Source: Xenorhabdus mauleonii
GTDB taxonomy: Bacteria > Pseudomonadota > Gammaproteobacteria > Enterobacterales > Enterobacteriaceae
Reading direction: 5' to 3'
Length of the DNA stretch: 64,000 bases
Assembly: GCF_900113945.1 (NCBI RefSeq)
Contig: NZ_FORG01000002.1
Span: 62,001-126,000, forward strand
The stretch's first letter is position 1. Each line of letters opens with the position of its first letter. A program made the translations under genes and the position numbers. The notes under the pieces are model-generated. The model ran no database searches. It was not told where the DNA came from and worked only from the letters and a program-made list of their open reading frames with translations. Shown here piece after piece: positions 37,192 through 64,000 of the stretch.

Positions 37192-38394
37192 ATGTCAAGT
37201 AAGCTGGTACTGGTTCTTAATTGCGGTAGCTCCTCTCTGAAATTCGCCATCATCGATCCTGCTAATGGTGAAGAATATCTTTCCGGCTTGGCAGAATGCT
37301 TTAACCTGCCAGAAGCCCGCCTTAAATGGAAAATGGATGGAGCAAAAAACGAAGCTGCTTTAGGTGCCGGCGCAGCGCACAGCGAAGCTCTGAACTTCAT
37401 TGTTAATACTATTTTGGCTGAAAAGCCAGAACTTTCTGCACAAATTTCAGCCATCGGTCACCGTATCGTTCATGGTGGTGAGAAATTTACTTCCTCTGTG
37501 ATTATCACTGATGAAGTTATCGAAGGCATTGAAGCGGCTATCCCATTCGCACCACTGCACAACCCAGCTCACCTGATCGGTATCGCTGAAGCGAAAAAAG
37601 CATTCCCTCATTTGGTTGAGAAAAACATCGCAGTATTTGACACCGCATTCCACCAGACAATGCCAGAAGAAGCCTACCTGTACGCACTGCCATACAGCCT
37701 GTATAAAGAGCATGGCATCCGTCGTTACGGCGCACACGGCACCAGCCACTTCTACGTTTCCCGCGAAGCAGCCAAAGTGCTGAACAAGCCAGTTGAAGAG
37801 CTGAATGTCATTACTTGCCATCTGGGCAACGGTGGTTCTGTTTCTGCGATTGTTAACGGCAAATGTGTTGATACTTCCATGGGTCTGACTCCGCTGGAAG
37901 GTCTGGTCATGGGTACCCGCAGTGGTGACATCGATCCAGCCATCATTTTCCACCTGCATGATGCAATGGGCATGACAGTTGCTCAGATCAATACCCTGCT
38001 GACCAAAGAGTCTGGCTTCCAAGGTCTGACTGAAGTGACCAGCGACTGCCGTTACGTAGAAGATAACTACGAAACTAAAGCGGATGCCAAGCGTGCAATG
38101 GACGTTTACTGCCACCGTCTGGCTAAATACATCGGCGCATACAGCGCACTGATGGAAGGTCGTCTGGATGCAGTTATCTTTACTGGCGGCATCGGTGAAA
38201 ACTCCGCACTGGTTCGTGAACTGGTCATGAAGAAAATTGCTCTGCTGGGCTTCGAATTTGACAATGAGCGCAACCTGGCTGCCCGTTTCGGCAAATCAGG
38301 CCTTATCACGACTGACAACAGCCGTCCTGCTCTGGTTATCCCAACCAACGAAGAACTGGTTATCGCTCAGGATTCCGCACGCCTGACAGCATAA
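37192..38394 (+). CDS. ackA: Acetate kinase
   Basis: A 400-residue enzyme, the same length as E. coli AckA, interconverting acetyl phosphate and ADP with acetate and ATP. It begins [20 protein letters not shown] (phosphate-1 motif), and has [18 protein letters not shown], and [14 protein letters not shown] (adenosine motif). An in-frame start 15 codons upstream (37147) is rejected because the ATG at 37192 reproduces the E. coli N-terminus and follows AAGG. Paired with pta downstream, it sets the acetyl phosphate level. Confidence 0.97.
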
Positions 38395-38411
38395 GCAGCA
38401 TGATTTTTACA

Positions 38412-38436
38412 GAACCGCCAGCGATGCTGGCGGTTC
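38412..38436 (+). terminator. Hairpin between ackA and pta
   Basis: GAACCGCCAGC, loop GAT, and the exact complement (11-base stem) start 18 bases after the ackA stop. It is followed by GCTATTCATG rather than a T-run, so it is more likely an attenuator or RNA-stabilising hairpin than a full terminator. Confidence 0.55.
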
Positions 38437-38469
38437 GCTATTCATGAATGCACTATTTATATATCGATT

Positions 38470-38603
38470 GCTATATACCGATTGAATTTCAACATGCAGC
38501 GCGACGGCAAGGGAGCTAATCCCCAGGAACATCGCTAACACTATGTGGCCGGGGTGAACGAGTGAAGCCAACAATGCTGCAACTTGAAAGGCAACAGGTA
38601 TAT
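38470..38603 (-). repeat. MITE-like palindromic repeat, copy B, between ackA and pta
   Basis: On the minus strand this matches copy A at 17567-17700 over about 115 bases with scattered mismatches. Imperfect inverted ends are TTTCAACATGCAGC (about 38487-38500) and GCTGCAACTTGAAA (about 38576-38589). It has no open frame of note. It lengthens the ackA-pta gap to 324 bases. Confidence 0.7.
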
Positions 38604-38718
38604 TCCTTGATAAATATTGCGTTGGCTCATGGTTCAAACTTCGACTATTCATATAGCATTGAACCAACCACATTGAGTCATATTTATTGACTAACGAGCA
38701 ACCGTCAAAGAGGTTTCC

Positions 38719-40934: not shown

Positions 40935-41280
40935 ATCTGTGCCCAATTCATCACCCACCGCCACCAACTCAAATAACCATTCACAGTAGAGTGCTGTTTA
41001 ATACTTTTCTTTTGCAATCAAATTAATGCCTCTATTTCCCATAATGCCTGCGTTTATATCATTTCCTTTTCAAAAAAATAACATATCGACAAAAAAACGA
41101 AAATAGATTAATTTCGAAAGCAAATATCGCATTATTCTTATTTGTTAGATAAAAATTCTTAATGTTACTAAATCAAAGCACTTTTTAACTTAACAACGGT
41201 TATCCAAAAATCGATAACTCTCTTCTTCCGAAGCCAATGAATCTAAATGGTTTGAAGACTGCAGCACAAAGGAAATGAGA
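40935..41280 (+). promoter_or_regulatory. NRPS 1 upstream region
   Basis: About 345 AT-rich bases between the pta terminator and NRPS 1. No reading frame resembles the missing front half of the NRPS 1 condensation domain: the NRPS frame is closed by a TAA near 41212. The ribosome binding site AAAGGA (41268-41273) lies seven bases before the ATG at 41281. The NRPS promoter must lie here. Confidence 0.5.
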
Positions 41281-44200: not shown

Positions 44201-47200
44201 GCACTTCAGTCCATTGGCAGGAATTGAAACAGCCAGTGCAAGTCGTCTGGCGGCATGCCTCCTTACACATAAACACCTTTGTTCCTGCCAGTGAGCAAGA
44301 TATTCCAGCGCAATTGCTGGCATACCTCGATCCACAGCAGCACCAGATAACGTTAAATCAGGCTCCGCTAGTGGCCGCTCATATTGCCCACGACCCAATA
44401 CAAGATGCTTGGTTGCTGGCCCTGAGTTTCCATCATTTGATCAGCGATCACATGACATTGGAGCTGATTATCGCTGAAATCAAAGAATTGTTGCACGATC
44501 GTGGCGAAAGCGATCATATCCCAAACAGACAGGTTGAAAACTTACCTCCGGCTCTGTCTTACCGTGATTTTGTCGCCCAATCCCTGTGTGTGCCAGAATC
44601 AGTCCATAAAGACTATTTTTGTAACATGCTTGCTGACGTGGATTCACCCACAGCTCCCTTCGGGATGTTGGATGTCCACAGTGATAAACGGGAGATAACG
44701 GAACTTTCGCAGCCACTTGCCCCCGCACTGGCGCAAGCCCTGCGTACTCAAGCGCGTCATCAAGGCGTCAGCCCCAGTGTGTTGTTCCATGTGGCATGGG
44801 CACTGGTTCTGGCAAAAATCAGCGGGCAGAATGATGTGGTTTTCGGCACGATTTTGCTGGGGCGAATGCAAGGCAGAGCAGGCATTGAGCAAGTATTGGG
44901 GCTGTTTATCAATACCTTGCCCATCAGGTTTTCCCTGGCAGATGCCAGCGCACAAGAAATTATTCAAACAACCTACCGCAATTTAGCGACCTTGCTGGAA
45001 CATGAACAGGCGCCATTGGCATTGGCGCAGCGTTGTAGCGGCATCCCCCAGTCTCTGCCGCTGTTCAACACGTTGCTGAACTATCGCCATAACCAACCCG
45101 AAAACACCTATACCCACTGGGAAGGCATTCGTCTGCTTGCAGAAAAAGAGAGAAGTAACTATCCCATCAACTTATCTGTCGATGATTGGGGGAAAGAGTT
45201 TAGCCTAGTGGTTCAAACTGTGTCAGACATTAATCCTGCTCGCTTGATAGCCTATATGACGACGGCACTGACAGGGCTGCTTGACGCATTGGACAACCCC
45301 TTAAAAAAACCGCTGTTAGACATTGCTATTTTGCCGGCAGAAGAACAGCAGCAGTTACTGGTCGATTTTAATGCTACACAACAAACCTTTCCGCAAGATG
45401 CGTTGATTCATCAGCTATTCGAAAAGCAAGAACAGAACACGCCCGATGCGATTGCTGTCAATTTTGATGGCCAGTTGTTGAGTTATCGAGAATTAAACCA
45501 GCGAGCCAACCGCCTCGCCCATCATTTGATTGCCTTGGGGGTACGCCCTGATGAACGGGTAGCAATTTGTGTTGAGCGTTGCCCCGAAATGCTGGTAGGC
45601 ATGCTTGCCATCTTTAAAGCAGGCGGGGCTTACGTACCGCTCGATCCCGCCTATCCTGCCGAACGCTTAGCTTATATGCTCAACGATTCTGCCCCGGTTG
45701 CATTGCTCATCCAGCAAGCCCTGACTCATCAATTGGATTGTGATATACCGACCATCATCTTGGATACTCAGGAACCTGCCAGCTTCGCTTTATCAGACAG
45801 CAATCCTGATAGCCGTGCCCTTGGCATCACCCCGCATCATCTGGCTTATGTGATTTATACATCAGGTTCGACCGGCCACCCCAAAGGGGTAATGATCGAA
45901 CACCACAGTTTGTGCAATGTCATGAGCGATCAAAAAGAGATACTTGCCATCACTCCAGACAGCCGTATCTTGCAATTTGCCTCCAACAGCTTTGACGCGG
46001 CCATTTGGGAATGTTGCCTCACATTACTTTCAGGTGCTTGCCTGTATCTTGCCAAGCCGACTCAGCTCCTGCCCGGTGCAACACTGCTCCAATACTTGGA
46101 AACACATGCGATTACCCATGCTCCCTTCCTGTCTCCGACGGCCCTGATGGCTATGGACACCCTGCCTGCAACGCTACAGGTTTTAGTCGTCGCGGGTGAA
46201 ACTTGTCCGCCTACGCTGGTCAAGCGCTGGGCTAACGGGCGGCAGATGTTCAATGCTTATGGGCCAACAGAAGCGACAATCTGTGCCACAATCTATCCAT
46301 GTGAGAACCCATGTGATAACCAAACAGAAAATGTTCTCCCCATTGGCCGCCCAATCGCCAATACCCAAATTTATATTCTGGACGCCAAGGGTCAACCAGT
46401 GCCGCTTTGTGTCACGGGCGAAATCTACATCGGTGGGGAGAATGTTGCGCGTGGCTATCTGAATCGCCCGGATCTGACAGCAGAACGCTTTCTGCCCGAT
46501 CCTTTCTCCGACAGGCCAAATGCCCGCATGTATAAAACCGGCGATTTGGGATGTTGGCTGCCTGACGGCAATATTGCCTACCTCGGCCGCAATGATTTTC
46601 AGATTAAACTGCGTGGGTTCCGCATCGAGCCGGGAGAGATCGAAGCGCAATTGGTAAAATGTCACGGAGTACGTGAAGCGGCCGTATTGGTGCGTGAAGA
46701 TGAAACACACCAAAAACGTCTGATCGCCTATTTGCTGCCTGAAAAAGGCATTGAACTTATCCCGTCGGAGCTACGCCAGCAACTCGCCCAGCAACTTGCC
46801 GATTATATGCTGCCCAGTGCTTTTGTGACGCTTGATGCCTTTCCATTGACACCCAATGGCAAGCTCGATCGCCAGGCATTGCCTGCACCGGATAAAACGG
46901 CCATTGTCACACGCCATTACGAAGCTCCTGCCGGCGAAATGGAAATAGAGTTAGCCGAGATTTGGCAAGAGCTTCTCAAACTGGAACAGGTTAGTCGTTA
47001 TGACCATTTCTTTGAACTGGGCGGCCATTCCCTGCTCGCTATTCAGTTTGCAGCGCGGGTATGCCAGAAACTGGCCCGAGAACTTCACTTACAACAACTC
47101 TTTGACAACCCTGTCCTCGCGGATTTGGCGGCTATACTCAGCAACACATCCGCACCCGCCCCAATCAGCATACCGATTGCCGAGCGTACTGCACCAATCC

Positions 47201-50200
47201 CGCTCTCTTTTGCCCAGCAACGCTTGTGGTTCCTTGCCCAGCTCGATCCGGCCGCCAGTCTGGCTTACCATATTCCGATCCTTTTACAGGTCAAAGGAGA
47301 ACTCAATTTCTCCGCATTGACTGCCGCACTCAACAATCTTGTTGCACGGCAAGAAAGTCTCCGCACGCGCATTGTCCAGATAGATGAACAGACTTATCAG
47401 CAAATTGATGCCGAAGATATCGGCTTTACGCTGACTTATCAGGATCTGCGTTCCGAAAGTGGCGACGCTCAACAAAATCACATTGCTGAATTAGTTGAAA
47501 ATGATTCTTGTACCCCTTTTGATTTCACTCATGGCCCGCTTATCCGTGGGCAATTGCTACAGCTTGCGGAAAAGGAACACGTTTTACTCCTCACCCAGCA
47601 TCACATTATTTTTGATGGCTGGTCAGCAGGTATTCTCCTGCATGAACTTGGCATACTCTACCGTGCAGCGCTTGAAGGTCACAACACGCCTTTGTTGCCT
47701 CTGCCAATCCAATACGCTGATTACACTGTGTGGCAACGTGAATACTTGCAAGAGCATACCTTGGTGGCACAGCGTGATTTCTGGAGAGAGCAACTGAAGG
47801 GAGCACCTGCTTTACTGACATTGCCGAGTGACCGCCCGCGTCCATCAGTGCAGCGCTATGCCGGCAATCAAATCCCTATCCATTTAAGTGCTGATTTACT
47901 GGCTTCCATTAAGGCATTGGCACAACGTCAGGATATAACGTTATTCATGACACTGCTGACCGGTTGGGCAATCGTCCTTTCCCGCCTCAGTGGCCAAGAT
48001 GACATCGTTATCGGTACGCCTGTCGCCAACCGTCCAAGGCATGAACTGGAAAATGTCATCGGCTTTTTCGTCAATACGTTGCCGTTACGTATCACGCTAG
48101 AAAATTGCAACACGGTGGCAGAATTATGTGCTCTTGTACGCAAGCAAGCACTGGCCGCTTATGCGCATCAAGATTTGCCTTTTGAGCAATTGGTTGAAAT
48201 TCTGCAACCTCAGCGCAACTTAAGCTACAGCCCGATTTTTCAGGTTATGCTGGCACTGGATAATACACCGCCACAATCTTTCGAGTTGCCTGATTTATCC
48301 ATCTCTTTCATAGAGCAGGCACTCCACAGTGTACATTTTGATATCACCCTGTCACTGACCGAAACCGTGGACGGGTTAAGTGGTCATCTGGAATATGCTT
48401 CAGATCTGTTTGATCGAAATACCGTTGAAAGAATGGTCAATTATCTGACGCAAGTATTGACCGCCATGGCAACGGATGAAATGCAGGAAATTGCTCATCT
48501 CCCCCTATTATCGGCAGCAGAACGCCAGCAATTGTTAGTTGATTTCAACGCAACCCAGATTGATTTTCCGCAACATGCCTTAATTCATCAATTAGTTGAA
48601 GCGCAGGTACAACGCACCCCTAATGCCATCGCCGTAACTTTTGAAGAACAATCCCTGAGTTATGATGAACTGAACCATTGCGCCAACCGCTTGGCTCACC
48701 ATTTGATAGCGCTGGGAGTACGGCCAGATGATCGGGTGGCAATTTGCCTCGAACGCAGCCCGTTGATGATTGTAGGTTTGTTGGGCATTCTGAAAGCTGG
48801 TGGAGCTTACGTACCGCTTGATCCCAATTATCCCTGCAAACGACTGGCGTATATCCTTGAAGATTCCGCACCAAAAGTCGTCCTGACACAAACGAAACTA
48901 CGCGGCCTTGTTGACTGTTCACTCCCCACAGTGATATTCGACAGTGCTGAACAATATTTTGATACTGAACAAAATATTGACACCGTAGCAACCTGCAATC
49001 CGGATACGCAGGCACTGGGATTGGCATCACACCATCTGGCCTACGTGATTTATACTTCCGGTTCCACAGGGCAGCCCAAAGGCGTCGCGATAGAGCACCG
49101 CAATACCGTGAATTTCCTCACTTGGGCACAGCAAAATTTCACACCGGAAGAATTGGCTCATACGCTTTGTGCGACTTCACTGAATTTTGATTTAGCCGTA
49201 TACGAATGTTTTGCGCCGCTTATCGCCGGAGGAACAGTGCACCTTGTCCCGAATGCACTTTCACTGACGACATTAAAACCCACTGAGGTGGAATCGACGA
49301 TCCGTCTGATCAATACCGTTCCGTCCGCTATCCTACATTTGCTCAATGCCAATGCCATTCCTGCGTCAACCAGAACCGTGAATCTGGCGGGTGAGGCCCT
49401 GAAATCCACTGTTGTTGAACAGTTATTCGCTTCCTCATCAGTGCAAGCCGTGTGTAATCTTTATGGCCCTTCTGAGACGACCACCTATTCAACCTGGACA
49501 CGCATGAACCGGGCAACCGGCTTTGCTGCCCATATCGGCCGCCCTATTGCCAATACCCAAATCTATATTCTCGACACACATGGTCAACCGGTTCCTCTCG
49601 GTGTCAGCGGCGAAATCTATATTGCCGGTGCTGGCGTTGCCCGTGGTTATCTCAATCGGCCTGAACTGACAGATGAACGCTTTTTACCCGATCCGTTTTC
49701 CTCGCAGCCTGCTGCACGCATGTACAAAACCGGCGATTTGGGCCGCTGGTTGCCTGACGGTAATATTGAATACCTCGGCCGCAACGATTTTCAGGTCAAA
49801 ATACGCGGTTTTAGGATTGAACTCGGTGAAATTGAAACAAAACTTGAGCAGTGTCGTGGGGTACGTGAAGCAGTCGTCATCGCGCGTGAGGATTCCCAAC
49901 AACAGAAACAACTGGTTGCCTATCTGCTCACTGAATCAGACAGGCAGCCCACACCGGCAGAATTACGCCAGCAACTGGCGCAACAGCTTACCGATTACAT
50001 GATCCCCAGTGCTTTTGTCATGCTTGATACTTTCCCGCTGACGCCCAATGGCAAGCTTGACAGACAGGCACTGCCTGCTCCGGATGCCTCCGCTGTCGTG
50101 ACGCAGGGTTATGAAGAGCCGATTGGTGAAGTGGAAACGGCGCTGGCGCAAATTTGGCAAACTCTCTTGGGATTCGAGCGCGTGAGCCGCCATGATCATT

Positions 50201-53200
50201 TCTTTGAACTCGGCGGCCATTCCTTGCTTGCTATCCAGCTTGTCATTCGGGTACGCCAAAATCTGGCACTGGAATTCTCTTTACCACAACTCTTTGCCCA
50301 CCCAGTGCTCTCGGATCTGGCCGCCACGCTCACGGGGGCGGCTGTGGCCACTCAAGCAGCGAAGATCCCTGTGGCTGAGCGCCACCAGCATCTGCCGCTC
50401 TCATTTGCCCAGCAGCGCCTGTGGTTCCTCGCCCAACTGAATCCTGCCGCCAGCCTGGCCTATCATATTCCGGCGGTATTGCACCTTCGCGGGCAACTTA
50501 ATCTATCGGCGTTCAAGGCCGCGCTGGATTTGCTGGTCGCACGACAGGAAAGTTTACGCACCCGATTTACTTTCGTTAATGAACAACCTTGCCAACACAT
50601 TGATGCTGAAAATATTGGCTTCGCCCTGAATTATCAGGATATACGCGAATTGAATAACGGCTCTGGCGTGGAACAAATCGATGAACGGATAGCACAGGAA
50701 ACACAAACGCTGTTTGATTTCTCCAATGAACCGCCAATCAGGGGCCAATTACTGCAACGTTCGGACGACGAATATATCTTTATTCTCACTCAGCACCACA
50801 TCATCACGGATGGTTGGTCGGTGGGAATATTCATTCAGGAATTGGGCCAGCTCTACCGTGCTGCCCTTGAAGGGAAAAAAGGGCTGCTGCCGCCTCTGCC
50901 CATTCAATATGTTGATTACGCTGTTTGGCAACAGGAGTGGCTGCAAAGTGACATGATGGCGGCTCAACGGAATTTCTGGCAAGAGCAACTTCAAGGCGCA
51001 CCTGAGTTACTGGCGCTTCCTACCGATAGACCACGCCCACCAGAGCAGAGCTACACAGGCGATAGCATTCCTATCCATCTGGATGCAGAATTGCTGGCCC
51101 GCCTCAAGGCGCTTGGACAACGGCAGGGAACGACATTATTCATGACCTTACTTGCGGGCTGGAGCATTGTGCTTTCCCGCTTGAGTGGTCAAAACGATAT
51201 CGTTATCGGCACACCGGTCACCAACCGCCCGCAAAGTGAATTGGAGGGTATCATCGGCTTTTTCGCCAATACCTTGCCTTTGCGTGTTGAGCTGGAAAAT
51301 AGCCACACCGTGGCAGAATTGCTCACCCACATCCGTGAACGCGCCTTGGCCGCTTATGAGCACCAAAATCTGCCGTTTGAACAATTGGTGGAAATTCTGC
51401 AACCTAACCGTAGTTTGAGCTACAACCCGATTTTTCAGGTTATGCTGGCACTGGACAACACGCCGGTTCACTCCCTTGAATTACCGGGCTTATCCGTTTC
51501 CATGCTTGAACAAACGCGCAACAGCGCACATTTTGACCTTACGCTGTCACTTGCCGAAACCAAGAATGGGTTAACTGGCTATCTGGAGTATGCCTCAGAT
51601 TTGTTCGATAACGTCACCGTTGATCGTATCGCAGGCTACCTTATTCAGGTGCTGACCGCCATGACAGTGGATGAAAAACAGAATGTTGCCCACTTGCCGA
51701 TGCTCTCTGCCGCAGAGCGCCAGCAATTGTTGGTCGAGTTCAACACGCCGCATTCCGAATGCCCACAGTTAGTTGACGAACCGTTTTTACACGAACCGTC
51801 GCGTTCACAACGTGGATTGATTCACCAATCATTTGAAGAGCAAGTGCAACGAACACCCGATGCCACCGCCGTCATCTTCGGCGAACAATCCCTGAGCTAT
51901 CAGGAGTTGAATCGCCGTGCCAATCAGCTCGCACACCGTTTGATTGCCTTCGGTGTGCGCCCTGATGATCGGGTGGCAATCTGTGTTGAGCGGGGTTTAG
52001 ACATGATTATTGGCCTGTTCGGCATTCTAAAAGCCGGTGCCGGTTATATCCCCCTCGATCCCGAATACCCCTCTGAGCGGCTGATTTATCAATTGTCGGA
52101 CGGCAAACCGGTATTATTGCTGACTCAGAAACACCTGCAAAAAGGCTTGTTTGTGCAAGATCTGCCCGTATGGCAACTGGATGATGAAACCTGTCACCAG
52201 AGTCTGGCACAACAGCCCGTGTACAATCCTGACAGCGAACAATTAGGGCTGAAACCTCATCATCTGGCCTATATTATCTACACATCCGGCTCCACCGGGC
52301 ATCCAAAAGGCGTCATGCTGGAACATCACAATGTAGTGAGTCTTATCCATGCCCAACGTCAGGTCAGCCAGCCTCAGTTGGGTGATCGCATTCTGCAATT
52401 TGTCACTGTTGCCTTTGATATTTCCGTTTCTGATATTTTTCCTACCCTTGCTTCGGGGGCTGCACTGGTTTTACGCCCTGCCCACATCAAAGTGCCGGAT
52501 ATGGGGTTCGTCAATTTCTTGCGTGAACAAAAAGTCACCATTATCAATGTGCCGACGGCATTCTGGAATCACTGGGTAGAAGAAGTGATGGTCGGGCACC
52601 GGGGTTTTAGCCCCTATCTGCATACGGTCATTGTAGGGGGCGATAAAATCGAGCAGCGCTATTTAGCCGACTGGTTATCCTGCCCTGAAACGCAATCCTG
52701 CCGTTGGTTCAACGCCTATGGCCCGACTGAAATCACCGTGACCGCCACCGCATTGCAAATAGATGGCAAACACGCTCTGCCGGTAACGGATAACATTCCC
52801 ATTGGGCGCCCACTTTCCAATACCCGCATGTATATCTTGGATGCATTCGGCGAACCTGTGCCCATTGGCGTGGGCGGCGAAATCTACATTGGGGGCCAAG
52901 GTGTTGCCCGGGGTTATTCAAACCAACCCAAACTCACAGCAGAAAGATTTGTCTTTGATCCTTTCAGCGAACAGCCAAATGCCCGCATGTACAAAACCGG
53001 TGACTTGGGCCGCTGGCGGGCGGACGGGAATATCGAATTCCTCGGCCGCAATGATTTTCAGGTCAAAATACGTGGCTTCCGCATTGAATTGGGTGAAGTC
53101 GAAACCCGATTGATGCAATGTAACGGTGTGCGTGAAGCGATTGTGCTTGCCCGTGAAATGCCCGTTCAAAAAGGAATGGCCAGTGACAAACGCCTTATTG

Positions 53201-55395
53201 CTTACCTACTGGCAAAACCGCATGTGAAGCTGGTGCCCGCAGAATTACGCCAACAACTCTCACTGCATCTTGCTGATTACATGCTGCCCAGCGCCTTTGT
53301 TGTTCTTGACGCTTTCCCTCTCGCCCCCAATGGCAAACTTGACCGTCAGGCACTGCCGTTACCTGATCAATCTGCTTTTGTCAGCCATACCTATGAAGCA
53401 CCTATCAACGAAATGGAAATCGCTCTGGCCCAAACATGGCAAACATTATTGCGGCTGGAAAAAGTGGGGCGTCGCGATCACTTCTTTGAATTGGGTGGAC
53501 ATTCGCTAATGGTGGTGAATTTAATCGAACAGTTGCGATTACAAGGCTGGAAGCTTGATCTCCGCTCCGTGTTTGCAACGCCAGTACTGGCCGACATGGC
53601 ACTAGCGATGCAACCCATTGAAGAACATGCCACTGCATTTATTGCGCCACCGAATCTCATTCCTGATGGCTGTACAAAAATCACGCCGGCCATGTTGCCT
53701 CTCATTTCTCTGGCGCAACATGAAATTGACACTATCACGGCGGTGATTCCCGGTGGTGCGGCCAATATCCAAGATATCTACCCCTTGGCTCCCTTACAGG
53801 AAGGTATGCTGTTCCATCATCTGTTACAGACTCAAGGGGATATATATCTGTTACAGCTCTTAATGGCCTTCGACAATCGTGAACGCCTTGATGCTTTTCT
53901 GTCTGCTTTCCAACAGGTGATTAACCGCCACGACATTTTGCGTACCGCTATTTGTTGGCAAGCTCTAAAACAGCCAGTGCAAGTCGTCTGTCGTCATGCA
54001 TCCCTGCATGTTGAGACTTTTGAGCCTGAAGATGATCACGCCATGCTGTCTCAGTTACAGGCACATACCAGTCCGTACAGGCATCGCCTTGATATACACC
54101 AAGCCCCGCTTATCTCTGCGAGTGTTGCCCATGACCCGCATCAGGGGGAATGGTTACTGGCGATGTGCGGCCACCACATACTGAATGACCACATTTCACT
54201 GGACATTATCATTTCTGAAATCAATGAACTTATGCACCGACGGGCCGAGCCTGCCACGCCGGCTTTGCCTTACCGTCACTTTATTGCCGAGACACTGAAA
54301 ATACCGCCTTCATCACATGAAGCTTATTTCCGTGAAACGCTGGGCGATGTCGAGATTCCCACCGTGCCTTTCGGCCTGCTGGATATCTACAGTGCAGACA
54401 GGCAAGTGACAAAGACCAGTCAGCTTATCCGTGCCTCCCTATCGAGAAACATCCGCAAGCAAGCACGCCGCCATAAAGTTAGCTGCGGTGTGCTGTTTCA
54501 TGTCGCTTTGGCGTTGGTATTGGCAAAAATCAGTCGTCAGGAAGATGTTGTTTTCGGCACTGTTTTGTCGGGACGTATGCAAGGCGGAACCGATATCAAT
54601 CAAATTCCTGGCCTGTTTATCAATACCCTGCCCACACGGATCCGGTTGGCTGAAAACAGCGTCCAACAGACCGTGCAAGCGGCCTACCGCAGTTTGACGC
54701 AATTGCTCGAACATGAACAAGCCTCACTGGCATTGGCCCAGCGCTGTAGCTCAGTCGCATCCCCTTTGCCTCTCTTTAACACACTGCTCAACTACCGCCA
54801 TACTCCGATGGATGCAGCCCGCACCGCATGGGAAGGCGTGCGCCTGATATCCGCAGAGGAAAGAATGAATTATCCCCTCTACTTTGCCGTGGATGATCTG
54901 GGCAAAAGTTTCCAGTTAGAAGTTCAAGCAGTGCAAGGAATCGATTCATCCCGCCTACATACTTACATGCTCAGTGCATTGTCTGGTTTAGTTGAAGCAT
55001 TAAATATCGCGCCTCAACAACCTATTGTGGATATACCGATTATTTCCGACATGGAGTTGCAGCAGTTACAAATTGATTTCACGAGTCATGCTGGGCAGAG
55101 AGAGCTTGCATTTGAGCACGCCGCTTTGGCAGGCCCCCCACATGAAGCTCCTCGCGGTGATGTGGAAACAGCCTTGGCTCAAATTTGGCAAAAACTGCTC
55201 AAACTGGAACGTGTGAGCCGACATGATAATTTCTTTAGTTCAGGGGGGCATTCACTTACCGCAATCCAGCTATTGGCCCGTATGCATGAGCAAAACATGC
55301 ACGTTTCATTGATGGATTTATTCACCCATCCTACTTTGAAGGAAATGGCAATGGTGGTGGATGATAGCCGAATGCCTTGTGTATCCGGCGAATAG
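41281..55395 (+). CDS. Non-ribosomal peptide synthetase 1, four A domains, A-less last module
   Basis: About 4,704 residues (ATG at 41281; the ATG at 41275 is one base from its ribosome binding site). Domains in order: rear half of a starter-type C domain (1-265, no HHxxxDG lobe); A1 (270-780); carrier T1 (Ser828, GGHS); dual C/E (885-1350, HSLLQTQGD and HHLISDH); A2; T2 (Ser1917); LCL (HHIIFDG); A3; T3 (Ser2981); LCL (HHIITDG); A4; T4 (Ser4075); dual C/E (HHLLQTQGD, HHILNDH); T5 (Ser4658), end. A fifth A domain and a thioesterase are absent. All A domains keep YTSGSTG and GKLDR. Codes read by eye against GrsA: A1 DVQFIAHVVK (proline-like), A2 DAWFVAAICK (hydrophobic), A3 DLYNNALTYK (alanine-like), A4 DISNIGAVTK (unassigned). 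Dual C/E placement predicts D-configuration for residues 1 and 4. Confidence 0.93.
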   Translation: MSHHSNHYSNDLQFWKKRYEILPPPLLQPASPNQSNTHNQSQSVVWQIDKALFQRIEGTIAQQKISILNFIHAVLVSYCARTTDADEIVIALPVHDHKHVEQQNSQESFSDIIPIGVTISSEDTFFDVLRQTTAEVRRCYEHQYVPLAEINRQTQVQQKTGRNHLFDIAIFDTEPSSEPFETPYPLSIIIRHQTAGILCSPEHDISPLALEFCFSTDYFSTTKISALQARLAVLMEGITIAPDIPIARLPLLPEAERQKILEDFNNTHVSLPKNALIHQMFEEQVQRDPNAIALFFEDQSMSYNELNQRANRLAHYLIAQGVRPDHRVAICVERSLEMVVGLLAILKAGGAYVPLDPTYPAERLAYILNDALPVALLTQSTLLSTLSCDCPTLLLDSPELTLETQPIHNPDIQILGLASHHLAYVIYTSGSTGLPKGVEMSLAALSNLLQWHRQDTSHFSGGGKTLQFAALGFDVAFQEIFTTLCEGGSLILINEEIRRDPQQLLHLIQQKKINRIFLPYIALQNIAEAASYIEGEFSCLSHIITAGEQLRITPAIRQFIQRCGTCQLHNHYGPTESHVVTSYTLAGSVEQWPSLPPIGHPIANTQIYILDTQGQPVPLGIAGEIYIAGASIARGYLNRPDLTAERFLHNPFSAQPDARMYKTGDLGRWLPDGNIEYLGRNDFQVKIRGFRIELGEIEARLIQCQGVHEAVVLVHENEKNHQKRLIAYLLPQANVKLVPSELRQQLSQHLADYMLPSAFVSLDAFPLTPSGKLDRRSLPDPDQSAFVISDYIPPRGKIETILSQIWQTLLGIEQVGRNDHFFELGGHSLMVVSLIKQLHIHGLHLSPHTVFATPILAEMASAILAAQETTSTFLVPPNGIPDNCTAITPEMLPLVSLTQDEIDSLAATIQGGAANIQDIYPLAPLQEGILFHSLLQTQGDIYIVLNLLAFDTRDYLDAFLAALQQVIDRHDVLRTSVHWQELKQPVQVVWRHASLHINTFVPASEQDIPAQLLAYLDPQQHQITLNQAPLVAAHIAHDPIQDAWLLALSFHHLISDHMTLELIIAEIKELLHDRGESDHIPNRQVENLPPALSYRDFVAQSLCVPESVHKDYFCNMLADVDSPTAPFGMLDVHSDKREITELSQPLAPALAQALRTQARHQGVSPSVLFHVAWALVLAKISGQNDVVFGTILLGRMQGRAGIEQVLGLFINTLPIRFSLADASAQEIIQTTYRNLATLLEHEQAPLALAQRCSGIPQSLPLFNTLLNYRHNQPENTYTHWEGIRLLAEKERSNYPINLSVDDWGKEFSLVVQTVSDINPARLIAYMTTALTGLLDALDNPLKKPLLDIAILPAEEQQQLLVDFNATQQTFPQDALIHQLFEKQEQNTPDAIAVNFDGQLLSYRELNQRANRLAHHLIALGVRPDERVAICVERCPEMLVGMLAIFKAGGAYVPLDPAYPAERLAYMLNDSAPVALLIQQALTHQLDCDIPTIILDTQEPASFALSDSNPDSRALGITPHHLAYVIYTSGSTGHPKGVMIEHHSLCNVMSDQKEILAITPDSRILQFASNSFDAAIWECCLTLLSGACLYLAKPTQLLPGATLLQYLETHAITHAPFLSPTALMAMDTLPATLQVLVVAGETCPPTLVKRWANGRQMFNAYGPTEATICATIYPCENPCDNQTENVLPIGRPIANTQIYILDAKGQPVPLCVTGEIYIGGENVARGYLNRPDLTAERFLPDPFSDRPNARMYKTGDLGCWLPDGNIAYLGRNDFQIKLRGFRIEPGEIEAQLVKCHGVREAAVLVREDETHQKRLIAYLLPEKGIELIPSELRQQLAQQLADYMLPSAFVTLDAFPLTPNGKLDRQALPAPDKTAIVTRHYEAPAGEMEIELAEIWQELLKLEQVSRYDHFFELGGHSLLAIQFAARVCQKLARELHLQQLFDNPVLADLAAILSNTSAPAPISIPIAERTAPIPLSFAQQRLWFLAQLDPAASLAYHIPILLQVKGELNFSALTAALNNLVARQESLRTRIVQIDEQTYQQIDAEDIGFTLTYQDLRSESGDAQQNHIAELVENDSCTPFDFTHGPLIRGQLLQLAEKEHVLLLTQHHIIFDGWSAGILLHELGILYRAALEGHNTPLLPLPIQYADYTVWQREYLQEHTLVAQRDFWREQLKGAPALLTLPSDRPRPSVQRYAGNQIPIHLSADLLASIKALAQRQDITLFMTLLTGWAIVLSRLSGQDDIVIGTPVANRPRHELENVIGFFVNTLPLRITLENCNTVAELCALVRKQALAAYAHQDLPFEQLVEILQPQRNLSYSPIFQVMLALDNTPPQSFELPDLSISFIEQALHSVHFDITLSLTETVDGLSGHLEYASDLFDRNTVERMVNYLTQVLTAMATDEMQEIAHLPLLSAAERQQLLVDFNATQIDFPQHALIHQLVEAQVQRTPNAIAVTFEEQSLSYDELNHCANRLAHHLIALGVRPDDRVAICLERSPLMIVGLLGILKAGGAYVPLDPNYPCKRLAYILEDSAPKVVLTQTKLRGLVDCSLPTVIFDSAEQYFDTEQNIDTVATCNPDTQALGLASHHLAYVIYTSGSTGQPKGVAIEHRNTVNFLTWAQQNFTPEELAHTLCATSLNFDLAVYECFAPLIAGGTVHLVPNALSLTTLKPTEVESTIRLINTVPSAILHLLNANAIPASTRTVNLAGEALKSTVVEQLFASSSVQAVCNLYGPSETTTYSTWTRMNRATGFAAHIGRPIANTQIYILDTHGQPVPLGVSGEIYIAGAGVARGYLNRPELTDERFLPDPFSSQPAARMYKTGDLGRWLPDGNIEYLGRNDFQVKIRGFRIELGEIETKLEQCRGVREAVVIAREDSQQQKQLVAYLLTESDRQPTPAELRQQLAQQLTDYMIPSAFVMLDTFPLTPNGKLDRQALPAPDASAVVTQGYEEPIGEVETALAQIWQTLLGFERVSRHDHFFELGGHSLLAIQLVIRVRQNLALEFSLPQLFAHPVLSDLAATLTGAAVATQAAKIPVAERHQHLPLSFAQQRLWFLAQLNPAASLAYHIPAVLHLRGQLNLSAFKAALDLLVARQESLRTRFTFVNEQPCQHIDAENIGFALNYQDIRELNNGSGVEQIDERIAQETQTLFDFSNEPPIRGQLLQRSDDEYIFILTQHHIITDGWSVGIFIQELGQLYRAALEGKKGLLPPLPIQYVDYAVWQQEWLQSDMMAAQRNFWQEQLQGAPELLALPTDRPRPPEQSYTGDSIPIHLDAELLARLKALGQRQGTTLFMTLLAGWSIVLSRLSGQNDIVIGTPVTNRPQSELEGIIGFFANTLPLRVELENSHTVAELLTHIRERALAAYEHQNLPFEQLVEILQPNRSLSYNPIFQVMLALDNTPVHSLELPGLSVSMLEQTRNSAHFDLTLSLAETKNGLTGYLEYASDLFDNVTVDRIAGYLIQVLTAMTVDEKQNVAHLPMLSAAERQQLLVEFNTPHSECPQLVDEPFLHEPSRSQRGLIHQSFEEQVQRTPDATAVIFGEQSLSYQELNRRANQLAHRLIAFGVRPDDRVAICVERGLDMIIGLFGILKAGAGYIPLDPEYPSERLIYQLSDGKPVLLLTQKHLQKGLFVQDLPVWQLDDETCHQSLAQQPVYNPDSEQLGLKPHHLAYIIYTSGSTGHPKGVMLEHHNVVSLIHAQRQVSQPQLGDRILQFVTVAFDISVSDIFPTLASGAALVLRPAHIKVPDMGFVNFLREQKVTIINVPTAFWNHWVEEVMVGHRGFSPYLHTVIVGGDKIEQRYLADWLSCPETQSCRWFNAYGPTEITVTATALQIDGKHALPVTDNIPIGRPLSNTRMYILDAFGEPVPIGVGGEIYIGGQGVARGYSNQPKLTAERFVFDPFSEQPNARMYKTGDLGRWRADGNIEFLGRNDFQVKIRGFRIELGEVETRLMQCNGVREAIVLAREMPVQKGMASDKRLIAYLLAKPHVKLVPAELRQQLSLHLADYMLPSAFVVLDAFPLAPNGKLDRQALPLPDQSAFVSHTYEAPINEMEIALAQTWQTLLRLEKVGRRDHFFELGGHSLMVVNLIEQLRLQGWKLDLRSVFATPVLADMALAMQPIEEHATAFIAPPNLIPDGCTKITPAMLPLISLAQHEIDTITAVIPGGAANIQDIYPLAPLQEGMLFHHLLQTQGDIYLLQLLMAFDNRERLDAFLSAFQQVINRHDILRTAICWQALKQPVQVVCRHASLHVETFEPEDDHAMLSQLQAHTSPYRHRLDIHQAPLISASVAHDPHQGEWLLAMCGHHILNDHISLDIIISEINELMHRRAEPATPALPYRHFIAETLKIPPSSHEAYFRETLGDVEIPTVPFGLLDIYSADRQVTKTSQLIRASLSRNIRKQARRHKVSCGVLFHVALALVLAKISRQEDVVFGTVLSGRMQGGTDINQIPGLFINTLPTRIRLAENSVQQTVQAAYRSLTQLLEHEQASLALAQRCSSVASPLPLFNTLLNYRHTPMDAARTAWEGVRLISAEERMNYPLYFAVDDLGKSFQLEVQAVQGIDSSRLHTYMLSALSGLVEALNIAPQQPIVDIPIISDMELQQLQIDFTSHAGQRELAFEHAALAGPPHEAPRGDVETALAQIWQKLLKLERVSRHDNFFSSGGHSLTAIQLLARMHEQNMHVSLMDLFTHPTLKEMAMVVDDSRMPCVSGE

Positions 55396-58334: not shown

Positions 58335-61300
58335 ATGTCCAGCAATCACAATCGCGCCTCAGAAATTTCTCAGGCGATTGATAATGGCGCATCTCCCTCC
58401 TGCCATGCATCGCCCCTCAGCACCATACAGCAGGCTATCTGGCTGGAACAGGCTATCCATCCTGATTCCTCCAATTACAACATCGGTTTTTTTATCTGCA
58501 TAGAAGGGAAACTGAATGAAGCTCTGTTTGCACGTGCTTTTGAAAAGGCAGTTCATTACCATGATGCATTGCGTTTGCAATTTACTGACATTCATGGGCT
58601 TCCTTCTCAAAAGATTGTGGATACCCTTCCTGCCTCCATTGTCATACGCGATTTCTCATCTTATCCAGATGCAAAAGCTCAAATAAAACAACATATTGAT
58701 GCCTCGTTTATACGCCAGTTCCATCTGAATGGAGCGCTGTGGCGCACTGAACTATTACGGGTCAGCCAAACTTGCCGCTACTGGCAGTTTTGCTGTCATC
58801 ATTTAATCAATGATGGCACGGGGTTATTCACCCTGCTCAACAATGTGATTAATGCCTACAACTGCCTGATGAAGGATGAACCCTTAAATTGGAATGCCTT
58901 CTCTTATCTGGATTTCGTCCAGAATGAGCGGACTTACCTCGATTCTCAAGCCTATTCACAGGATTTACAATTTTGGTTGCAGCGTTTTGAAAACCCGCCT
59001 TCTCCCTTGCTTTATCCCGTACATGCCGACAAAACCGCAAGACAGGGGAAAGCCGAAAATATTTTTTGGCGGCTCGATCAGACGATGGCTCAACGCATTG
59101 AAACAATCTTTGCCAGACAGGGATTACCTTTCCTGTATTTTATGTATGCCGTGATTGCCTGCTATTTCGTGCGAACAACAGGGACAGATGAAATCGTCAT
59201 CGGCATTCCCGTGCACAACCGAAAAAATGCCCGGCAAAAAAGAACATTGGGGGTCTTTGTCTCTGTGATCCCTATTCGGGTAACGGTTTCTCCCGAAGAC
59301 ACGCTCCGTGATGTGATGCAAAAAGCAGAGGCTGAATTTAACCAGAGTTACAAACACCAGCGTGTTCCCATGGCTGAGGTCAGCCGCAAGACGCATATTA
59401 AACAGAAGACCGGGCGGGCCAACCTGTTTGACATTGCATTGTCCATTGAGCTTTTTAATGCTGATCTGCATATCGAAGGAGAAGATGCTCAGGTCAAATA
59501 TTTTGAACTCTACCGGGGCATTCCTCCCTACCCTCTCGCGATTTCAGTGAAACAGTACGCCCTTGGCCTTGGCGATGATAATCCTCCCATTGCCATTGAA
59601 TTTAATTTCTCCACGGATTACCTGAGTGTCGAAGAGATTGCCGCGCTTCAATCCCGTCTGGCTGTATTGCTTGATGCCGCCCTTGCTTCACCCGATACAC
59701 CGATAGCCGATTTACCCATTTTGCCGGAAGATGAACGCCAAAAAGTCTTGGTGGATTTCCGCGCCCCCCAGATTGATTTTCCACAAAATGCAGTGATCCA
59801 CCAACTGTTTGAAACACAAGTTAAATCAACGCCTGATGCCATTGCTGTCGTCTTTGAAGATCAATCCCTGAGTTATGACGCGCTGAATCGGTGTGCCAAT
59901 CGTCTGGCCCATCAATTGATTGCCCTGGGAGTGCGCCCAGACGATCGGGTGGCGATTTGTGCCGAACGCAGTCTGGATATTGTGATTGGCCTGTTGGGTA
60001 TCCTCAAGGCAGGCGGGGCCTATGTGCCGCTCGACCCGACTTACCCGGCTGAACGGCTGGCCTATATGCTCAATGATTCAGCCCCTGTAGCGCTGCTCAT
60101 TCAGCCTGCCACGGCAAAAATGCTGGACAATCAGCTATCAATCAGCCACATACCCGCAATCATGCTGGAGGGAGGAAAACCTGATAATAAAAATCAGCCT
60201 GCCTTAGATGAAAAATCGGCAGAGAATCCGGATAGCCAAGCTCTGGGATTAACTTCACACAATCTGGCTTATGTTATTTATACTTCCGGCTCAACCGGGC
60301 AACCCAAAGGGGTCATGGTGGAACATTATGGTTTATGTAACTTGATTACCACCCAGCAAAAAATCCTTTCCCTCACGCCGGGCAGCCGCCTGTTGCAGTT
60401 TGTTTCAAACAGTTTCGATGTCTATATCTGGGAATGTTGCATGGCTCTCTTGGCTGGAAGTCAGCTTTATCTTGCCAAACGCGCCGATATCCTGCCGGGG
60501 GCAACGTTGTCCCATTACTTGGAAACCCATGCCATTACCCACGTGTTTTTGTCCCCCACCGTTTTGGCGGCAATGGATTCGATTCCTGATACCGTGCAAG
60601 TTTTAATAACCGGCAGTGAAGTCTGTCCGCTAATACAGGTCAAACGTTGGGCGCACGGGCGACAGATGTTCAATGGTTATGGACCGACAGAAACCACCAT
60701 TTGTGTCACTCTCTATCAATGTAACGATCAAGATAAAAACGCCCCGCCGATTGGGCGCCCTATTGCCAATACTCAGATTTATATTCTGGATACCAACGGT
60801 CAGCCTGTTCCGATTGGAAGCACAGGCGAGATCTATATTGGTGGTGTGGGAGTTACCCGTGGTTACCTCAACCTCCCTGAACTCACACAAAGCGTTTTCC
60901 TGCCAGATCCTTTTTCAATCGCCACCGGAGCGCGCATGTACAAAACCGGTGATCTGGCTCGTTGGTTGCCGGACGGCAATATTGAGTACATCAGCCGCAA
61001 CGATTTTCAAATCAAACTGCGCGGTTACCGCATTGAACTGGGCGAAATTGAAAACCATCTCACGCAGTGCCAAGGCGTACGCGAAGCCGTTGTTATAGAC
61101 CGGAAAGACAATACTGGTCAGAAGCGCCTTGTGGCCTACCTGCTCGCAAAACCAGATACAAAATTGGTGCCGACACAGTTGCGCCAACAGCTCACACAAA
61201 AACTGGCTGACTACATGATCCCCAGTGCTTTCGTGACGCTTGACACTTTCCCGCAAACTCCCAATGGCAAACTGGATCGTCAGGCCTTGCCCGAACCCGA

Positions 61301-64000
61301 TCAAAGCGCCATCGTCACCTACGGTTATGATGCGCCGGTAAGTCCGGCAGAAATTGCCTTGGCCCAGAGCTGGCAAGCGCTACTGGGACTGGAAAATGTG
61401 AGTCGCCATGATCACTTTTTCGAACTGGGCGGGCATTCTTTGGTGGCCGTCCGACTGACTGAGCAGTTGTACCATTTGGGGTGGCGACTTGATATCCATT
61501 CGGTGTTCGCGGCACCATTATTGGCGGAAATGGCCAAATCGATGGTTATTGTTCAGGACGGCACAACCTCATTTACCGTGCCTCCCAATCTTATTCCTGC
61601 CAATTGCACAGCAATTACCCCAGACATGCTGACTCTGATCTCTCTGACACAAAATGAGATAGATGCCATCACCGCGACGGTTCCCGGTGGGGCTGCCAAT
61701 ATTCAGGATATCTACCCACTCGCGCCATTACAGGAAGGCATACTGTTCCATTATTTACTGCAAACACAAGGGGATACTTACCTCCTGCGCACTCTGTTTG
61801 CTTTTGACACTCGCAAACGCCTTGACGATTTTCTGGCAGCCTTGCAACAGGTCATCAACCGCCATGATATTCTGCGTACAGGCATATGCTGGCAAGGATT
61901 GACACATCCGGTACAGGTCGTGTGGCGTCAGGCATTCCTGCCCATCAATCAATTTATTCCGGATAGCAAAGAAGATGTGTTATCTCAATTGCTGCTACAT
62001 ACCGATCCTATCCGGCACCGTGTCGATGTGAGCCAAGCCCCGCTTTTTTCCGCTGATATCGCCTATGAACTCCATCAGGATGAATGGTTGCTTTCCCTGA
62101 GTTTCCATCATTTAGTCAGTGATCACATGACACTGGAACTTATCATCACTGAAATCAACCAACAACTGCATTCCCGTGCCAGACACCATCATGCTCACGC
62201 TGAGAATTCACCTGAGGCGCTTTTTTTATCTGAGGCATTGCCTTACCGAAACTTTGTCGCCCAATCCCTGAGTGTGCCGGCAGAAATACACGAAGCCTAT
62301 TTTCGTGAAGAGCTGGCCGACGTAGAAATTTCAACAGCGCCTTTCGGTGTACTGGGTGTACTGGATGTGCACAGCGGGGGCAGGCAGGTAACGGAAGCCT
62401 CACGGTTCATGGAGCCTGCACTGGCCAATGTGATCCGGGAGCAGGCCCGTCGTCAGGGGATCAGTCCCACCGTTCTGTTTCATGTGGCGTGGGCACAAGT
62501 GCTGGCACATACCAGTGGGCAAAATGACGTGGTTTTCGGCACGGTATTGTTGGGCCGAATGCAGGGAAATGCCGGTATAGAAAAAATCATGGGGCTATTT
62601 ATCAATACGCTTCCCGTGCGGATACCATTGGCAGGAAATAGCGTGCAAGAGATCCTGCAAGCCACCCACCATCGACTGATAAAATTACTGGAACATGAAC
62701 AGGCGCCACTGGTGCTGGCACAACGTTGCAGCAGTGTGCCGCCTTCCCAACCTCTTTTCAGTTCACTGCTCAATTATCGCCATACCACACCGGGCGCAAT
62801 CCATACCCCACTAGAAGGCGTCCGCTTGCTGGAAGTACGGGAAAGAACTAACTACCCCATCATGCTGTGCGTAGATGATTTAGGTGAAGACTTCAGCTTA
62901 ATTGCCCAAGCGGTATCCGGCATTGATGCAAAACGCTTAATCGATTATATGATCACCGCCCTGACCGGATTGGTAACAGCATTGGATAGCGAGCCACAAA
63001 AACCAATCCTGAATATTTCTATCCTGCCCGCTACCGAGCGCCGACAGTTGCTGGTCGATTTCAATGCCACACAGACTGATTTCCCGCACGATGCTTTAAT
63101 CCATCAATTAGTTGAGGCACAAGTGGCTCGAACCCCCAATGCCACTGCGCTAGTCTATGGCAAACAATTTTTCAGCTATGATGAACTGAACCAGCGGGCT
63201 AACCGTCTGGCCCATCATTTGGTTGCACAAGGCATGCATCCCGATGAACGGGTGGCAATTTGTGTTGAGCGCAATCTGGAAATGGTAGTAGGGCTGCTTG
63301 CCATCCTTAAGGCAGGAGGAGCTTACGTCCCGCTCGACTTTACTTATCCGGCCGAGCGACTGGCATATATGCTGGAAGATTCAGCCCCCGTTATTGTTCT
63401 TACACAAGCATCGCTAGCTGGCAAACTGACGCACCATGTGCCTACAGTGCTCATTGATAACTTCTTCGCAGATAGAGAATCCCCCATTGAGCCACAATCA
63501 AAAAATAATCCGGATGCCAAAAGACTGGGATTGACATCCCATCATCTGGCTTATGTGATTTACACTTCCGGCTCCACCGGATTGCCTAAAGGAGTCGCCA
63601 TTACTCATCGCAATACCGTCAATTTCCTCACTTGGGCACAACGGACATTCGACCAGAAAGCGTTGGCACATACCCTTTTTGCCACTTCCTTCAGTTTTGA
63701 TCTGGCTGTATATGAATGCTTCGCCCCGCTCATTTCTGGCGGCACGGTGCATATTGTTTCCGATGCGTTGTCATTAATCGCAGCAGAACGCCCTTCAACA
63801 GAGGCATTGGCCGAAAAAAGCGGCTCCATAAGCCTCATAAATACAGTGCCATCCGCCATTGCGCAATTGCTGGAAACTGATGCTATTCCACCCACTGTCC
63901 GGGCCGTCAATTTGGCCGGCGAAGCATTGAGGCCCCATATCGTTGAACAATTGTTCACAAATTCGTCCGTGCAACATGTATGCAATCTATATGGCCCTTC
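58335..64000 (+). CDS. Non-ribosomal peptide synthetase 2, N-terminal part (starter C-A-T-C/E-A...)
   Basis: An open frame of 1,888 codons continues past the window edge with no stop. Domains in order: a complete starter-type C domain (1-475) with the active site HHLINDG at His155-Gly161; A1 (about 480-985, YTSGSTG and GKLDR present, by-eye code DVWFIGGIC); carrier Ser1035 (FFELGGHSL); dual C/E (about 1085-1560, HYLLQTQGD at 1139 and HHLVSDH at 1258); and A2 (from about 1580, code begins DLYNNAL, the same as A3 of NRPS 1). An N-terminal C domain means the first residue is probably N-acylated, and the dual C/E makes it D. The start has AAGGAG nine bases upstream. The rear half of its starter C domain aligns with the truncated N-terminus of NRPS 1. 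Confidence 0.93.
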   Translation, partial: MSSNHNRASEISQAIDNGASPSCHASPLSTIQQAIWLEQAIHPDSSNYNIGFFICIEGKLNEALFARAFEKAVHYHDALRLQFTDIHGLPSQKIVDTLPASIVIRDFSSYPDAKAQIKQHIDASFIRQFHLNGALWRTELLRVSQTCRYWQFCCHHLINDGTGLFTLLNNVINAYNCLMKDEPLNWNAFSYLDFVQNERTYLDSQAYSQDLQFWLQRFENPPSPLLYPVHADKTARQGKAENIFWRLDQTMAQRIETIFARQGLPFLYFMYAVIACYFVRTTGTDEIVIGIPVHNRKNARQKRTLGVFVSVIPIRVTVSPEDTLRDVMQKAEAEFNQSYKHQRVPMAEVSRKTHIKQKTGRANLFDIALSIELFNADLHIEGEDAQVKYFELYRGIPPYPLAISVKQYALGLGDDNPPIAIEFNFSTDYLSVEEIAALQSRLAVLLDAALASPDTPIADLPILPEDERQKVLVDFRAPQIDFPQNAVIHQLFETQVKSTPDAIAVVFEDQSLSYDALNRCANRLAHQLIALGVRPDDRVAICAERSLDIVIGLLGILKAGGAYVPLDPTYPAERLAYMLNDSAPVALLIQPATAKMLDNQLSISHIPAIMLEGGKPDNKNQPALDEKSAENPDSQALGLTSHNLAYVIYTSGSTGQPKGVMVEHYGLCNLITTQQKILSLTPGSRLLQFVSNSFDVYIWECCMALLAGSQLYLAKRADILPGATLSHYLETHAITHVFLSPTVLAAMDSIPDTVQVLITGSEVCPLIQVKRWAHGRQMFNGYGPTETTICVTLYQCNDQDKNAPPIGRPIANTQIYILDTNGQPVPIGSTGEIYIGGVGVTRGYLNLPELTQSVFLPDPFSIATGARMYKTGDLARWLPDGNIEYISRNDFQIKLRGYRIELGEIENHLTQCQGVREAVVIDRKDNTGQKRLVAYLLAKPDTKLVPTQLRQQLTQKLADYMIPSAFVTLDTFPQTPNGKLDRQALPEPDQSAIVTYGYDAPVSPAEIALAQSWQALLGLENVSRHDHFFELGGHSLVAVRLTEQLYHLGWRLDIHSVFAAPLLAEMAKSMVIVQDGTTSFTVPPNLIPANCTAITPDMLTLISLTQNEIDAITATVPGGAANIQDIYPLAPLQEGILFHYLLQTQGDTYLLRTLFAFDTRKRLDDFLAALQQVINRHDILRTGICWQGLTHPVQVVWRQAFLPINQFIPDSKEDVLSQLLLHTDPIRHRVDVSQAPLFSADIAYELHQDEWLLSLSFHHLVSDHMTLELIITEINQQLHSRARHHHAHAENSPEALFLSEALPYRNFVAQSLSVPAEIHEAYFREELADVEISTAPFGVLGVLDVHSGGRQVTEASRFMEPALANVIREQARRQGISPTVLFHVAWAQVLAHTSGQNDVVFGTVLLGRMQGNAGIEKIMGLFINTLPVRIPLAGNSVQEILQATHHRLIKLLEHEQAPLVLAQRCSSVPPSQPLFSSLLNYRHTTPGAIHTPLEGVRLLEVRERTNYPIMLCVDDLGEDFSLIAQAVSGIDAKRLIDYMITALTGLVTALDSEPQKPILNISILPATERRQLLVDFNATQTDFPHDALIHQLVEAQVARTPNATALVYGKQFFSYDELNQRANRLAHHLVAQGMHPDERVAICVERNLEMVVGLLAILKAGGAYVPLDFTYPAERLAYMLEDSAPVIVLTQASLAGKLTHHVPTVLIDNFFADRESPIEPQSKNNPDAKRLGLTSHHLAYVIYTSGSTGLPKGVAITHRNTVNFLTWAQRTFDQKALAHTLFATSFSFDLAVYECFAPLISGGTVHIVSDALSLIAAERPSTEALAEKSGSISLINTVPSAIAQLLETDAIPPTVRAVNLAGEALRPHIVEQLFTNSSVQHVCNLYGP

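Follow-up and report, generated by a model that had tools for sequence, protein, structure and literature searches.

An A-less terminal C/E-T module in an enlarged LpcS-family synthetase of Xenorhabdus mauleonii and how its chain may be released

How does a nonribosomal peptide synthetase (NRPS) let go of its product when its last module has neither an adenylation (A) nor a thioesterase (TE) domain? The question is posed by NRPS 1, a protein of 4706 amino acids (aa) encoded in a 64,000-nucleotide stretch of Xenorhabdus mauleonii DNA (the window; NZ_FORG01000002.1, positions 62,001 to 126,000) by a 14 kb open reading frame (ORF) without internal stop (41275-55395, + strand; Table 1). A Pfam search of the protein returned five condensation (C) stretches, the first of them a half domain, together with four A, four A-C-terminal and five carrier (T) stretches, and no TE stretch. 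In the last module a dual condensation/epimerisation (C/E) domain carrying HHLLQTQGD (residues 4181-4189, base 53815) runs to '..LQQLQIDF', and only 22 residues separate this from the start of the carrier, 'APRGDVETALAQIW', at the position where each of the remaining four modules has an A domain. The serine of the last GGHS motif is residue 4660 (codon at 55252) and the protein ends 14 residues beyond the terminal carrier. This ending, dual C/E, linker, carrier and stop with neither A nor TE, is real; the same ending is found in 27/27 tail loci described below (with a TE added in one), which excludes chance. The first-pass annotation of the window had already placed HHLLQTQGD and the serine codon at precisely these positions and had described a terminal module devoid of A and release domains, a description that Pfam and the domain map bear out. 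It had also called the termination logic unusual, which is correct but has been in print since 2022 for the synthetase LpcS (PMC9177418).

The tail is a feature of the genus rather than of this strain. We searched 60 genomes, the source genome included, with positions 53650-55392 as query and a threshold of 1e-60, and found matches in 29/60 genomes, all Xenorhabdus. The match covers essentially the whole tail in 25/29 other Xenorhabdus genomes; for G002 a partial match is listed, on the same contig as the X. anantnagensis locus L067, where the C/E-T end was read directly, bringing the A-less tail to 26/29. The best matches in G006 and G008 fall in C-A modules (L037 and L036; L035-L037 do not include the tail), and G024, which is 82% complete, gave none at 1e-60. 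The 25 relatives and the source genome, which has two copies, provide 27 tail loci from 26 genomes, and in all 27 the C/E domain is followed by a carrier with no A domain between them. A stop follows within 57 residues of the serine motif in 26/27. The exception is LpcS of X. lircayensis (L065:359-12937), which has the LpcS modules and the A-less C/E-T that it shares with NRPS 1, and then, unlike NRPS 1, a type I TE after the carrier. From just past the carrier, this TE region shares 83% DNA identity over 918 bp with the latter of two tandem TEs in another NRPS of the same genome (L133:6833-7750), which suggests that the TE was captured by recombination; as an ancestral state it is unsupported, and it was probably gained. 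Orthologues ending in a full C-A-T-TE, which the first-pass annotation had named as the sign of a simple deletion, were sought and none was found among the 27 tails in 26 genomes or in L067; both L067 and the TE-bearing X. lircayensis protein are A-less.

Three smaller observations concern the same loci. G007 has a free-standing TE-like frame of 286 aa (L132:5234-6091) ~4 kb downstream of lpcS, X. indica (L057, ~16.4 kb) has a short TE-like remnant (59 aa, 47%) at a similar distance, and LpcS of X. anantnagensis (L067:320-12169) contains a short repeat insert, SKHGQ/SKHSQ, within its terminal C/E.

Both parts of the tail appear to be maintained. Across a set of 24 proteins (L051 was left out as lying on the same contig as G001, and the tail-bearing G007, G014, G027 and G029 are not in the set), the terminal carrier serine is kept in 24/24 and the terminal C/E reads HHxxNDHxS in 24/24. 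Over 10 pairs, the last carrier shows ratios of nonsynonymous to synonymous substitution rates (dN/dS) of 0.06-0.23 and the last C/E ratios of 0.13-0.18, against 0.04-0.40 for the other domains; judged by these ratios, terminal carrier and C/E are under purifying selection. The Asn before the Asp (NDH) is present in 28/28 distinct C-T contexts of the Xenorhabdus loci, in 0/26 C-A contexts and 0/2 unclassified ones, and in 0/75 C-A and 0/10 unclassified contexts of 58 loci from other genera; the counts cover those contexts in the examined loci whose motif matches HHxxxDH, a part of the genus's C domains. In the same LpcS proteins the corresponding residue of C2 is S or C (22/22 read; 1/23 unread), and none of the other dual C/E domains that we examined has HHxxNDHxS. 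On the evidence of these motif counts, the Asn is a mark of the A-less terminal C/E. Matches outside Xenorhabdus, at one point taken for further A-less C-T modules, were withdrawn because domain maps mostly show an A domain after the C; an apparent C-T in L080 is a false motif match, and L089 is the exception. There, a Variovorax NRPS (L089:6647-16735) ends E-C-T by our reading, a parallel case with no A in its last module but with an ordinary C domain (HHALFDG).

What kind of synthetase is NRPS 1? LpcS, which makes the lipocitides/bovienimides, is tetramodular with an 'unusual terminal T3-C/E4-T4' (Shi et al. 2022, PMC9177418); its products are acyl-D-Leu-L-Ala-D-Cit-OH/-NH2 (Cit, citrulline), they dampen insect immunity, and LpcS is part of the most widespread Xenorhabdus-specific cluster family (PMC9177418). 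NRPS 1 is an enlarged member of this family, with one module more and half of its starter C lost, and its ending is the one already published for LpcS. Like LpcS it closes with T-C/E-T lacking A and TE and has Ala and Cit codes in its last two A domains; unlike LpcS, whose order is C-A-T-C/E-A-T-C-A-T-C/E-T, it has five modules, and four A domains in place of three. Its last seven domains are 80-90% identical to A2-T2-C3-A3-T3-C4-T4 of the LpcS of G012. Among the 23 other proteins there is no single close source for the first two modules (best for A1, X. hominickii, 74%); A2 scores highest with X. hominickii A2 (68%), several LpcS A1 domains standing at 69-71%. The codes DLYNNALTYK and DISIIGAVTK both equal those of G012, and the latter also that of X. 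bovienii T228, their Ala and Cit meanings resting on the published LpcS product; the Ala code of T228 has one unread position. The A domain preceding the terminal C/E has the code type DIS[I/L]IGA[V/I]TK in 24/24 proteins; elsewhere in the set, two proteins gave no code for their first A domain, and position 278 is unread in several. In the tree of the 24 proteins the tail of NRPS 1 groups with G012 at 95/93 and with X. szentirmaii at 100/100. NRPS 2, the second LpcS of the genome, sits on a long, poorly placed branch, so NRPS 1 and NRPS 2 are not shown to be recent duplicates.

A trace of the missing A domain may survive in the linker between C/E and carrier. Its sequence varies freely among homologues, and in 5/24 proteins (X. 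japonica, X. yunnanensis, X. anantnagensis, X. hominickii and X. lircayensis) it contains an A10-like motif, NGKxDxxxLP, in forms of NGKLDRQALP; in four of the five this stands shortly after an apparent A-domain start ('DF..TQ' or 'NFNCTQ'), both motifs having been read by eye, without a statistical test. These motifs make it most likely that an A domain was deleted in the family's past, the terminal C/E-T being what is left of a C-A-T module whose scar has worn away elsewhere. The earlier suggestion of a clean A-domain deletion thus holds as far as the deletion itself goes; the event would be old and genus-wide, not a truncation in this strain.

We favour, with a probability of roughly 0.65, the reading that the LpcS-family end lost its A domain, that its C/E epimerises the residue on the preceding carrier (T4 in NRPS 1), and that the chain leaves from there as acid or amide with no residue added by the last carrier (T5). 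The terminal C/E would act on the peptide held by T4, which by its code is citrulline-loaded, and turn the last residue to the D form; the chain would depart at this stage as free acid or carboxamide, most likely because water or ammonia attacks the epimerised thioester, within the C/E domain or beside it, T5 being retained as a structural or transfer partner. The published LpcS product ends in D-Cit, which means that the preceding module's residue is epimerised and fits a terminal C/E acting on the preceding carrier.

Several points weigh against this reading. The lpcS cluster was silent before promoter exchange (PMC9177418), and NRPS 1 is not LpcS proper, having four A domains rather than three and half a starter C, so that it may make another product or none at all. 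We identified neither an enzyme for release nor a source of ammonia: the CN-hydrolase encoded between NRPS 1 and NRPS 2, considered as amide maker, was rejected because it has no match at 1e-40 in 29/29 other Xenorhabdus genomes and none at 1e-10 in the 26 other loci scanned (27 including its own). The conservation of the last carrier goes unexplained if that carrier adds nothing, and suggests that it has a job. A pairwise dN/dS value does not tell whether selection still acts on the branch of NRPS 1 itself. As to the deletion, under unweighted parsimony the A10-like motif must have changed three times or more on the 24-protein tree, the deep forks of which are weak (47/59), and it may possibly have been captured from other modules, as the X. 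lircayensis TE seems to have been; repeated new origin of the motif seems less likely than its repeated decay. Finally, G028 has no pta gene upstream of lpcS (L047:1-2336), where fimbria-like frames were recognised by eye; by the look of these flanks, lpcS has moved there or something has been inserted upstream.

A stronger form of the favoured reading gives the carrier an active part. The A-less C/E-T would be a dedicated release device, in which a specialised C/E with its invariant HHxxNDHxS epimerises the last residue and then hands the chain over to ammonia or water, the carrier taking part in the work. We hold this only tentatively and think it rather doubtful; if true, it would be a means of ending a peptide that needs no TE, no reductase and no stand-alone C domain accepting an amine, and that nearly all the Xenorhabdus genomes searched have kept.

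The job of the last carrier could also be to accept a residue. The first-pass annotation held that this carrier must be charged in trans unless an A domain had been deleted, and the invariant serine, the purifying selection and the intact C/E motif would all suit a carrier loaded by the A domain of another synthetase, onto which the C/E adds a residue that is later cut away to leave the Cit carboxamide or acid; such loading of A-less modules has been proposed for himastatin and WS9326A (PMC9943842). The amide end needs a nitrogen source in any case, the carrier's conservation leaves room for sacrificial loading, and among the 80 TIGR01733 A-domain-like matches of the genome, none of which is singled out, a distant partner is possible. 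However, the reported LpcS products stop at Cit, the residue of the preceding module (PMC9177418), and the absence of a last-carrier residue argues against simple trans-charging; moreover, among 18 Xenorhabdus loci (L051-L068; 0.3-10 kb downstream scanned) another NRPS frame of at least 500 aa occurs only in L065. We consider charging in trans unlikely, and less well supported than the other points of that annotation.

The opposite view, that C/E-T is a passive leftover in which only epimerisation matters and release is spontaneous or left to a housekeeping type II thioesterase, strikes us as improbable. It would account for the absent A and TE, the A10-like remnant and the freely varying linker, and the mixture of acid and amide products (PMC9177418) fits loose release; but neither the carrier nor the C/E evolves faster than working domains do, and a signature as invariant as NDH is not to be expected under decay.

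NRPS 1 differs from its relatives most at its beginning. Within its first 280 residues only positions 186-456 of the Pfam Condensation model are matched, that is, the C-terminal lobe, and the alignment of the start with LpcS of X. bovienii begins at residue 229 of the latter (54% identity). The 5' end, encoding MxMSH, is 72% identical over 96 bp to the start of X. lircayensis lpcS, and with six starter C domains as queries no significant trace of the missing lobe was found in 40501-42300. The HHxxxD motif of the starter C, kept in 23/23 other LpcS-type proteins (one with G->S), is absent, and the catalytic half of this domain appears, from these alignments, to have been lost in frame. The first A domain has a code, DVQIIAHVVK, that we take to be proline-like; LpcS proper has neither such a first module nor a starter C without its catalytic lobe. 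Since the lobe is gone, NRPS 1, if active, should start from an unacylated Pro-like residue, and its product would be a tetrapeptide, (Pro-like)-X-Ala-Cit, in place of a tripeptide with an acyl group.

These features can also be read as decay, of a recombinant gene whose starter lobe has gone, whose added modules came from elsewhere and which yields no product. The in-frame loss would suit this, as would the mixed make-up, with seven domains close to those of G012 and two modules of no close source. Yet the 14 kb frame has no stop, the C/E, carrier and A motifs sought after the starter are all present, and dN/dS against G012 is 0.07-0.20 over the last seven NRPS 1 domains (a pairwise value, compatible with recent loss), so that we give decay a low probability. 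That the terminal carrier of NRPS 1 instead delivers the chain to NRPS 2, the two forming one long assembly line, is very improbable: NRPS 2 does lie downstream on the same strand with a full first C domain, but it has the LpcS order, its first C aligns with the starter C of relatives' lpcS, it too ends C/E-T, and the 25 whole-tail relatives have one tail each among the matches listed, the tail occurring there without a second copy.

The surroundings agree with assignment to the family. The pta gene lies directly upstream of lpcS in 5/6 relatives with enough flank, as it does upstream of NRPS 1, with ackA beyond it in the four relatives where the flank reached; this adjacency is an observation of our analysis and no part of the published LpcS definition. 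The domain order of NRPS 2 is exactly that published for LpcS, A-less C/E-T tail included. We also considered NRPS 1 as PaxB, the middle subunit between PaxA and PaxC, and rejected this, LpcS being the better fit and a PaxA-sized NRPS frame of 1084 aa lying elsewhere, ~40 kb downstream at C48:157474, followed by frames of 4433 and 2491 aa. This three-gene NRPS set (G000:C48:157474-181478, outside the window) is probably the PAX cluster; we count four modules in the second of its frames, against three for PaxB in PMC8251938.

Table 1. Coordinates of NRPS 1, its domains (boundaries approximate, set by hand) and neighbouring genes in the window
Feature	Position	Strand	Basis or remark
NRPS 1, LpcS-family synthetase: half-C, A-T, C/E-A-T, C-A-T, C-A-T, C/E-T	41275..55395	+	ORF + Pfam
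Starter C remnant, C-terminal lobe only, HHxxxDG lobe missing in frame after MxMSH start	41275..42111	+	Pfam, alignment
A1, code DVQIIAHVVK; best match X. hominickii LpcS A1, 74%	42112..43632	+	
Carrier T1	43657..43860	+	
Dual C/E2, HHLISDH	44092..45390	+	
A2, code DAWFVAAICK = code of X. hominickii LpcS A2 (68%)	45394..46890	+	
Carrier T2	46924..47127	+	
C3, HHIIFDGWS	47188..48537	+	
A3, code DLYNNALTYK as G012 LpcS A2 (lipocitide Ala position), 86% to G012 A2	48583..50079	+	
Carrier T3	50116..50319	+	
C4, counterpart of LpcS C3 (ordinary HHxxxDGWS motif)	50383..51735	+	
A4, code DISIIGAVTK as LpcS A3 (citrulline position), 88% to G012 A3	51814..53343	+	
Carrier T4, putative donor for terminal C/E	53398..53601	+	
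Terminal dual C/E5, HHLLQTQGD + HHILNDHIS	53770..55104	+	
C/E-to-carrier linker, A domain absent	55105..55146	+	
Terminal carrier T5, Ser codon 55252	55147..55350	+	
ackA and pta	37147..40863	+	upstream of NRPS 1
DUF4184/Zn-dependent phospholipase C-like gene	55878-56735		between NRPS 1 and NRPS 2
CN-hydrolase	56867-57628		between NRPS 1 and NRPS 2
NRPS 2 start, second LpcS of genome, C-A-T-C/E-A-T-C-A-T-C/E-T	58335..63998	+	3889-aa frame ending C48:131980

The tail architecture is already published (LpcS, PMC9177418), and the available text of that paper leaves the release step without explanation; the comparison made here renders it testable. Set against the literature at hand on lpcS, lipocitides and bovienimides, three findings are new, namely a family member that is both enlarged and starter-less and stands in tandem with another LpcS, the A10-like remnants in the linker, and NDH as a signature of the terminal C/E, with the limits that a five-module lpcS may be in the bovienimide paper (Li et al. 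2021, J Nat Prod) and that no literature search was aimed at the signature. The remnants hint at how the module arose, selection acts on its carrier and C/E, and NDH marks the terminal C/E. NRPS 1 itself is an example of natural module gain beside a conserved release end, and as such useful for assembly-line engineering.

Among known systems, A-less modules charged in trans occur in the syringomycin and viomycin synthetases. HmtL of himastatin and WS19 of WS9326A (PMC9943842) likewise belong to modules that lack an A domain as the last module of NRPS 1 does, but a residue is added there, unlike in LpcS. A parallel in function comes from the same genus: in the rhabdopeptide synthetases the terminal stand-alone C domain Kj12C releases the chain with a free amine as acceptor (PMC6195595). 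Release of the chain by a terminal C domain is what we propose for the LpcS-type end too, the difference being that Kj12C stands alone and uses a free amine.

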